From Centipeda flueggei ATCC 43531 (GTDB lineage: Bacteria; Bacillota; Negativicutes; Selenomonadales; Selenomonadaceae), in assembly GCF_000160695.1 (NCBI RefSeq), contig NZ_GG694008.1, positions 118,902-182,901 on the forward strand: a DNA stretch of 64,000 nucleotides, read 5' to 3'. The notes under the pieces were generated by a model. That model saw nothing but the letters and a program-made list of their open reading frames with translations, had not been told where the DNA came from and ran no database searches. Below, piece by piece: positions 11,080 to 13,649 of this stretch. The position numbers and the translations under genes were made by a program. Positions within the stretch are counted from its first letter, which is position 1, and each line of letters begins with the position of its first letter.

Positions 11080-12396
<1,317 letters not shown>

Positions 12397-12462
12397 TCAT
12401 CACCATAACGAAAGGGCATCCCCTTTAGACGCATCAATTCTCGGATGCGCTGTCTCGGTGAT

Positions 12463-12619: not shown

Positions 12620-12635
12620 TGTGACCTAGGTTACA
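12620..12635 (+). promoter_or_regulatory. CRP/FNR-family binding site centred at -41.5 of the candidate small RNA
   Basis: TGTGACCTAGGTTACA is a near-perfect palindrome matching the CRP/FNR family form TGTGA-N6-TCACA with one mismatch. Its centre is 41.5 bases upstream of the start predicted from the extended -10 at 12654-12662, the classic class II activator position. Which family member binds is not visible in this window. Confidence 0.6.
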
Positions 12636-12653
12636 AAATTTTCAAACAAAACA

Positions 12654-12662
12654 TGATAAAAT
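12654..12662 (+). promoter_or_regulatory. Extended -10 promoter of the candidate small RNA
   Basis: TG (12654-12655), one base, then TAAAAT (12657-12662). There is no good -35, which fits activator dependence on the CRP/FNR-like site just upstream. The predicted start is about 12669. Confidence 0.55.
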
Positions 12663-12668
12663 ACGAAG

Positions 12669-12860
12669 TGTCAACGGGGAACACGAAACGTCCTCCCCGA
12701 CATCTTTCCCCCCCGTTGATCATCCCTCTATAGGAACGTCTCCCTGCGTTCCTGATGGTAAGGCAAATCCTTACATCCCATTTCTCAAGCCGCAGGTATT
12801 CCCAGCCTGCGAGCATCCCTTTCCATGAAAAAGAGCCGACACCCATGTCGGCTCTTTTTC
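12669..12860 (+). ncRNA. Candidate small regulatory RNA, about 190 nt, with three CAUCCC motifs
   Basis: This stretch has a promoter, an intrinsic terminator and a regular series of hairpins, but no open frame with a ribosome binding site. The stems are 12671-12679 with 12711-12719, 12732-12738 with 12747-12753, 12758-12763 with 12769-12774, and 12791-12796 with 12806-12811, then the terminator. CAUCCC occurs at 12721, 12774 and 12814, in the linkers after stems. Unpaired C-rich motifs are the targeting elements of many Firmicutes small RNAs, and CAUCCC could pair with GGGAUG at translation starts. I considered 6S RNA but see no long closing helix. No gene lies downstream on this strand, so it is not a leader. 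Confidence 0.55.
12828..12859. terminator. Bidirectional terminator shared by the small RNA and the ZIP transporter gene
   Basis: Arms GAGCCGAC (12833-12840) and GTCGGCTC (12847-12854) have A5 before and T5 after. It works for the plus-strand small RNA and for the minus-strand gene ending at 12870. Confidence 0.85.
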
Positions 12861-12869
12861 TGTACGCAT

Positions 12870-13649
12870 TTATCCGAGCGCGACATCGAGCATCATCATG
12901 AGCGTAAAGCCAACCGCAAACGAGAGCACGCCGATGTTCGAGTGCTCTCCCTCGCTCATCTCCGGGATCAATTCCTCCACCACGACGTAGATCATCGCGC
13001 CCGCCGCGAAGGAAAGTGCATAGGGCAGAACGGGCACGATGAGTGCCGTTGCAAGCACCGTCAGTACGCCGCCGATCGGTTCGACCGCACCTGAGAGGAC
13101 GCCGCCCGCAAAAGCACGCCACTTTCCCATCCCCGCCGCGCGCAGCGGCATCGAGATGATCGCCCCCTCGGGAAAGTTCTGGATGGCAATGCCGAGTGAG
13201 AGCGCAAGAGCCGCACCGAGCGTAATGCCCTCGCTGCCGCTCAGCCAGCCCGCATAGATCGCACCGACTGCCATCCCCTCCGGGATGTTGTGCAGGGTCA
13301 CAGCAAGGACGAGCATCGTCGTCCGCGAAAGGCGGCTGTGCGGCCCCTCCGCCTGCTGCGCATTCATGTGCAGATGCGGGATGATGTGATCGAGGATGAG
13401 GAGAAAGAGCGTCCCCGCCCAGAAGCCGACGACAGCAGGAACAAAGGCGAACTGCCCGAGATCGCCAGAGCCCTCCATCGCAGGGATGAGAAGGCTCCAG
13501 ACCGATGCCGCCACCATAACGCCTGCGGCAAAGCCTGTCAGACCGCGCTGCACACTGCGGTTGAGCGTATCCTTCAGAAAGAAGACACAGCCGGCACCGA
13601 GCGCCGTACCAATGAAGGGGATCATCAGTCCCTCAAAAACATCTGACAT
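12870..13649 (-). CDS. zupT: ZIP-family divalent metal transporter (ZupT/GufA-like)
   Basis: The product (259 residues) has about eight membrane spans. It carries the ZIP signature TLHNIPEGMAVG in the fourth span and a second conserved NFPEGAIISMPL segment in the fifth; both line the zinc/iron pathway. A His-containing loop (DHIIPHLHMN) lies between early spans, as is usual in the family. It imports Zn, Fe or Mn into the cytoplasm. The ATG is preceded by AGAGGTGAT. It is monocistronic, with a recognisable promoter; an imperfect TGATAAT-type inverted repeat beyond the -35 could be a Fur- or Zur-like site, but that is weak. The gene symbol rests on family resemblance. Confidence 0.85.
   Translation of the reverse strand: MSDVFEGLMIPFIGTALGAGCVFFLKDTLNRSVQRGLTGFAAGVMVAASVWSLLIPAMEGSGDLGQFAFVPAVVGFWAGTLFLLILDHIIPHLHMNAQQAEGPHSRLSRTTMLVLAVTLHNIPEGMAVGAIYAGWLSGSEGITLGAALALSLGIAIQNFPEGAIISMPLRAAGMGKWRAFAGGVLSGAVEPIGGVLTVLATALIVPVLPYALSFAAGAMIYVVVEELIPEMSEGEHSNIGVLSFAVGFTLMMMLDVALG

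Follow-up and report, generated by a model that had tools for sequence, protein, structure and literature searches.

A predicted small RNA with repeated UCCC motifs and a CRP/FNR-type promoter in Selenomonadaceae

Does the DNA between the divergent eno gene and the zupT-like gene of Centipeda flueggei ATCC 43531 encode a regulatory RNA and, if so, what would switch it on and what would it bind? The locus lies in a stretch of 64,000 nucleotides (contig NZ_GG694008.1, positions 118,902 to 182,901; hereafter the window). A sequence-only reading of the window had proposed a small RNA (sRNA) here, with an upstream activator box, an extended -10, three copies of CATCCC (at 12721, 12774 and 12814) and a terminator, all of which a check of the sequence placed at the same coordinates. 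The conservation of this RNA, its structure, the multiplicity of its motif and the anatomy of its promoter can be read directly from the genomes compared here. With moderate confidence, we propose that it represents a new family of stand-alone, trans-acting sRNAs in the Selenomonadaceae, activated at a class II promoter by a CRP/FNR-family protein and blocking translation as its UCCC motifs pair with Shine-Dalgarno sequences.

The RNA gene and its conservation

Folded from position 12660, the region reaches -77.7 kcal/mol, compared with -41.1 +/- 3.8 kcal/mol in dinucleotide shuffles (z = -9.67; 0 of 200 shuffles were as stable), and the predicted fold has four hairpins and a terminator. No gene overlaps the region on its own strand and no conserved open reading frame was found there; insertions and deletions between species have lengths that are not multiples of three. 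The earlier description of four hairpins and a terminator without a gene is thus borne out. Since no co-directional gene was seen downstream of the RNA in the loci examined, it is not a leader, and the locus is a stand-alone RNA gene. Its parts and neighbours are as follows.

12620..12635, plus strand: CRP/FNR-family dimer site TGTGACCTAGGTTACA, centred at -41.5, kept in 13 of 13 aligned genomes as (T)GTGAC-N4-GTYACA
12639..12644, plus strand: TTTTCA directly 3' of the dimer site, conserved in a promoter comparison of three genera
12654..12662, plus strand: extended -10, TG-A-TAAAAT (TGATATAAT in most relatives), conserved, without a -35 hexamer
12668..12860, plus strand: small RNA of about 193 nucleotides, by fold, conservation and covariation
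12670..12720, plus strand: hairpin 1 with a small inner hairpin; loop CGUCCUCCCCGACAU invariant in the genus, compensatory G-C/A-U changes, a homologous stem in other genera
12721..12731, plus strand: linker 1, CAUCCCUCU, invariant across 14 genomes
12732..12753, plus strand: hairpin 2 with UCCC in its loop, loop and stem nearly invariant
12758..12774, plus strand: hairpin 3, by fold
12774..12788, plus strand: linker 2, of which CCCAUUUCUCAA (12777-12788) is identical across three genera by pattern search and alignment
12789..12813, plus strand: hairpin 4 with UUCCC in its loop, by fold; by comparison not in other genera
12814..12824, plus strand: linker 3, CAUCCCUUUCC, invariant in the aligned genus; other genera have AUCAUCCCUUCC
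12827..12860, plus strand: terminator hairpin with U run, by sequence and fold, which probably also serves zupT on the minus strand
11080..12384, minus strand: eno (TIGR01060), divergent neighbour outside the RNA gene
12870..13649, minus strand: zupT-like ZIP transporter gene (PF02535), convergent neighbour

The RNA is conserved far beyond chance. By blastn, each of the 13 further genomes in the oral genus to which C. flueggei belongs has it, and none of 46 genomes outside that genus does. A covariance-model search of relatives, which the sequence-only reading had suggested as a check, recovered 14 of 14 genus genomes, with CAUCCC kept and compensatory changes in the stems; under strict filters these were the only matches. 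Lax filters, applied to 23 other genera, added genomes G028 (3.7e-4) and G015 (0.002). Both matches are real relatives of the RNA, because they have in common with it CCCAUUUCUCAA, AUCAUCCCUUCC, UCCC loops, a terminator and an upstream TTACA with a -10; a further match, in G014 (L140), was discarded as a chance hit because it has no UCCC motifs. The core pattern CCCATTTCTCAA-N4-34-ATCCCTT was present in 38 of 189 Selenomonadaceae genomes, distributed over three genera (14/14 in the oral genus, 20/22 in genus g16 and 4/6 in genus g3, where one genome has two copies), and the reversed pattern in none. In G193, two RNA regions lie about 63 kb apart (L176, L177) with identical RNA and promoter, which could reflect a duplication or an assembly artefact. 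Across the alignment, box and -10 are invariant or nearly so, as are the loop ACGUCCUCCCCGACAU and the copies of CAUCCC, one of which reads CACCCC in one species. Carriers of the 18-nucleotide loop include Selenomonas artemidis, S. infelix, S. noxia, S. felix, S. massiliensis and Centipeda periodontii.

The stems covary. Among 22 distinct g16 and g3 RNAs, stems 1 and 2 and the terminator have 97.5% paired cells, and 10 of 24 pairs have changed on both sides; the covariation score is 0.404 versus 0.212 when shuffled (0/500), and shifting the partner by 1-3 columns lowers pairing to 38-61%. The oral genus varies little, and the changes present agree with the fold: pairing is 98.4%, and three pairs have changed on both sides. 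The g16 and g3 RNAs do without the oral hairpin 4 and have different terminators; they carry (A)AUCCC in loops 1 and 2 and, in many, also in the terminator loop. What stays constant is the displayed motif and CCCAUUUCUCAA, while the stems drift with compensation, as is typical of an RNA that base-pairs or is bound at a motif.

Promoter anatomy and the case for Fnr

The distance between box and -10 is 21 nucleotides, so that a transcription start at 12669 would place the centre of the box at -41.5 (22 nucleotides would give -42.5). The oral genus keeps the 21 nucleotides throughout; in the other two genera, g16 among them, the spacing is about 22. With a site at -41.5, no recognisable -35 and a conserved spacing like that at narK, the promoter has the features of a class II CRP/FNR promoter, its +1 being predicted; the class II position claimed earlier stands on spacing, conservation and this narK-like geometry. 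Most oral boxes are TGTGAC/GTTACA hybrids. The g16 box is TGTAAC-N4-GTTACA; outside the oral genus as a whole, either this form or the proximal TTACA half alone is present. Between box and -10, 3-5 nucleotides downstream of the box, a TTTTCA(T/A) element recurs in three genera (variants TTTCTCA and TTTTTCG in two species).

In the whole genome of C. flueggei, there are four exact matches to TGTGA-N6-TNACA-N21-TANNNT, which lie at this RNA, in the fnr/narK intergenic region in both directions, and upstream of narG. The divergent fnr (L039 903-1583, minus strand) and narK (L205 2227-3576, plus strand) share one TGTGA-N6-TCACA box for both directions; with narGHJI, which has a box before narG, they make up a small Fnr/nitrate regulon of the Bacillus kind in oral Selenomonas. 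The fnr product combines CRP and cNMP-fold domains and ends in CENCGVEIC, a CX2CX4C motif. Its recognition helix, ARESLNR, retains the residues with which CRP reads TGTGA. We take the CX2CX4C arrangement to be that of Bacillus subtilis Fnr. In the latter protein the cluster is C-terminal (PMC8139620). All Fnr copies except the most divergent have CENC-X4-C at the C-terminus, and a TGTGA-N6-TCACA site lies between fnr and narK in 13 of 13 Fnr-bearing genomes of the genus, so that a Bacillus-type Fnr regulon, with sites in common with nar genes, is present. Fnr is most likely the activator in the oral group, and the leading candidate there, because a CX2CX4C Fnr is encoded and the box with its spacing is common to narK/fnr and narG. 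The suggestion of a Bacillus-like Fnr made from sequence alone therefore fits well. A TGTGATTTTTTTCACT box (L051 1501-1528) also lies just upstream of a type II NADH dehydrogenase-like gene and is a possible Fnr-repressed site.

UCCC motifs, possible targets and rival explanations

The CAUCCC motif is part of a wider pattern, the repeat unit of which is UCCC. The C. flueggei RNA has seven UCCC copies, five of them unpaired, in linkers and loops. Each RNA of the family carries 5-7 copies, mostly unpaired, against 2.1-3.8 in dinucleotide shuffles, with one exception (4 copies); exposed UCCC, as in the UCCC-type antisense sRNAs, is thus seen in all members but one. The earlier view that such C-rich unpaired motifs are typical of Firmicutes antisense sRNAs is in keeping with this. 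Its placing of the CAUCCC copies in unpaired linkers holds in relatives, but is uncertain for the copy at 12721, for which GAUG near 12754 is a possible pairing partner in this species alone.

What we infer for this RNA is its activation, which protein activates it, its base-pairing with messages and their repression. Transcription would require a CRP/FNR-family dimer bound at about -41.5 and would start some 6-7 nucleotides past the -10. In oral Selenomonas the dimer would most likely be Fnr, making the RNA a member of the regulon that includes narK, fnr and narG, although a second CRP/FNR homologue may act with it or replace it. Once folded, the RNA would expose in its loops and linkers 5-7 UCCC copies plus the invariant CCCAUUUCUCAA, and these segments could pair with G-rich Shine-Dalgarno or start regions of several messenger RNAs to block translation. 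Hfq, which the genus encodes (its gene lies in the sequence stretches of two relatives), would probably assist pairing. Repression through start-site pairing is our best inference from the kind of RNA this appears to be.

No conserved target was established either by comparing pgi and eno across species or by pairing against 319 translation-start regions drawn from about 460 kb of this genome. The pgi gene had been put forward because of GGGATG at its start, but this is limited to the present species: the nearest relative has TGGATG, and nine others lack GGGATG there. The suggested link to carbon state finds no support. In the eno leader a small hairpin (window 12385-12450, minus strand; GGGGAUG...CUCCC type) occurs in every species of the genus, about 35 nucleotides ahead of the start codon, and varies in a compensatory way. 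As a target this leader was rejected: the hairpin is conserved, but in place of GGGAUG S. felix has GGGATA and S. artemidis GGGAGG. In this genome the start region of narI (L217 781-1446, minus strand), GGGAGGACG, is perfectly complementary to the hairpin-1 loop CGUCCUCCC; such pairing would be a possible feedback on the nitrate reductase operon.

Several observations weigh against our proposal. The RNA is known as a predicted transcript, from DNA sequence only. Start-region pairing exceeded that of shuffled C-rich controls only marginally (linker 1, 4/100; others not significant), and the top predicted target, a putative diadenylate cyclase gene (L214 17427-18269, minus strand), is only partly conserved: its leader matches linker 3 over 12-13 base pairs here and over only about 8 in G006. 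Moreover, Fnr was not found in five RNA carriers checked (G013 in the oral genus; G028, G175, G015 and G193): besides G013, it was missing from two of the four genomes examined in g16 and from both of those examined in g3. Fnr is therefore not present wherever the RNA is, and because G013 keeps a near-intact box without it, Fnr is not the sole regulator. This brings in a second CRP/FNR homologue (L041 504-1202, plus strand; helix RPSLSREL), whose orthologues (L126-L136, L185, L186, L189, L190, L192, L193) are widespread in Selenomonadaceae. That a protein of this type ([STA]RPSLSREL) is the true, ancestral activator of the same sRNA, with Fnr binding secondarily or never, seems to us to have a little under an even chance. 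It is the only CRP/FNR type in every carrier examined (the oral genus, four g16 and two g3 genomes), and in G015 the sole CRP/FNR protein at E <= 1e-7; for this reason it may be the ancestral regulator. The TGTAAC-N4-GTTACA box of g16, the GTTACA right half that most oral-genus boxes have and narK boxes lack, and the TTTTCA element common to the genera all speak for it, as does the lack of an equivalent of the CRP Glu181 that reads TGTGA, in which the protein resembles NtcA (TGTA). Yet no other site for it was identified and its own gene has no such box nearby; in the oral genus the left half reads TGTGAC and the spacing matches that at narK exactly, and the G013 box fits TGTA poorly. The simplest history would be an ancestral L041-type regulator, with Fnr recruited in the oral genus.

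Other readings concern what the RNA does. One short motif in 5-7 copies, retained in loops and linkers though the surrounding hairpins differ between genera, would also suit a multivalent sponge of the CsrB/RsmZ kind, titrating not single messenger RNAs but an RNA-binding protein or G-rich sRNAs. We consider this quite unlikely, given that CsrA reads GGA, to which the motif is complementary, that a long non-repeated invariant such as CCCAUUUCUCAA is unexpected in a pure sponge, and that we know of no bacterial UCCC-binding protein. With 0-2 copies of GGGA, the transcribed strand does not have the repeated GGA of CsrB-like RNAs. A CsrB-like transcript from the minus strand was rejected, as the -10, box and U run all belong to the plus strand and the hairpin of other genera has no minus-strand U run. 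A broader version, a 'UCCC array' in which a CsrB-like scaffold under an oxygen/nitrate CRP/FNR switch would globally dampen G-rich starts or capture a C-rich-binding protein, is likewise improbable, if worth keeping in mind. A cis-acting role as leader or attenuator, or antisense control of eno or zupT, might be suspected from the position between these genes, divergent and convergent, throughout the oral genus and from GGGAUG in the eno leader of most species. But the terminator faces the convergent gene, the eno leader motif is missing in S. felix and S. artemidis, and other genera place the RNA beside different genes: among the g16 and g3 loci examined, its neighbour is usually a divergently oriented M48 peptidase gene, and the convergent genes vary (M20 peptidase, brnQ). 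A role in cis is thus largely refuted and has only a very slight chance of being correct. The trans-acting, UCCC-pairing sRNA remains our preferred reading.

Comparison with known regulatory RNAs

A search of Rfam 15 with the window and seven homologous loci gave no match above the gathering cut-off, the best sub-threshold ones being chance-like, in agreement with the first impression that no described RNA corresponds to this one. No trans-acting regulatory RNA of Selenomonas or Selenomonadaceae turned up in the open-access literature and RNA library searched, and the part of a 26-genome survey of non-coding RNAs available to us lists only cis motifs for this bacterial class. The present RNA would give the Selenomonadaceae an sRNA family that is promoter-anchored and supported by covariation, its promoter tying it to the nitrate/anaerobic regulon of a host group of oral bacteria linked to periodontal disease.

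The UCCC repeat is the seed of LhrC, RsaE, RNAIII, SprD and FsrA and contacts Shine-Dalgarno sequences, a pairing demonstrated in LhrC and RsaE (PMC4132741, PMC9217828). The LhrC family of Listeria monocytogenes resembles the present RNA in having several interchangeable binding sites per RNA, three of which were demonstrated on lapB (PMC4132741). It differs in sequence (no Rfam match), in hosts, in carrying three UCCC copies as opposed to 5-7, and in being controlled by LisRK and not through a CRP/FNR-type site. RsaE and RoxS share the link to redox state and nitric oxide and the C-rich UCCC(C) seeds that pair with Shine-Dalgarno sequences (PMC9217828, PMC8139620). In contrast to the RNA described here, they have two UCCCC seeds and SrrAB/ResDE control, and no homology was found. 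They are also shorter. FnrS is, to our knowledge, not a UCCC-repeat RNA. Like the present RNA, this enterobacterial sRNA lies under an Fnr-type activator site (PMC8139620). The two RNAs are unrelated, and the cluster of Escherichia coli FNR is N-terminal, unlike the C-terminal Cys motif found here. CsrB, CsrC and RsmY/Z similarly repeat one short motif through loops and linkers, but theirs is GGA instead of UCCC, and the sole Rfam CsrC match is a 13-bit one on the minus strand at the terminator. The B. subtilis Fnr regulon (narGHJI, narK-fnr) is alike on the regulatory side, with a C-terminal Cys-motif Fnr, adjacent narK and fnr, TGTGA-N6-TCACA sites and narG; here, narK and fnr are divergent and a small RNA is added.

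Taken together, the sRNA family is new, whereas its probable functional kind, that of the UCCC RNAs, is already known; it has more motif copies than the closest of them, and this unusually high number makes multivalency testable. It would add an independent case of a redox-controlled UCCC sRNA, with a logic like that of FnrS, RoxS/RsaE and LhrC in an RNA of unrelated sequence.
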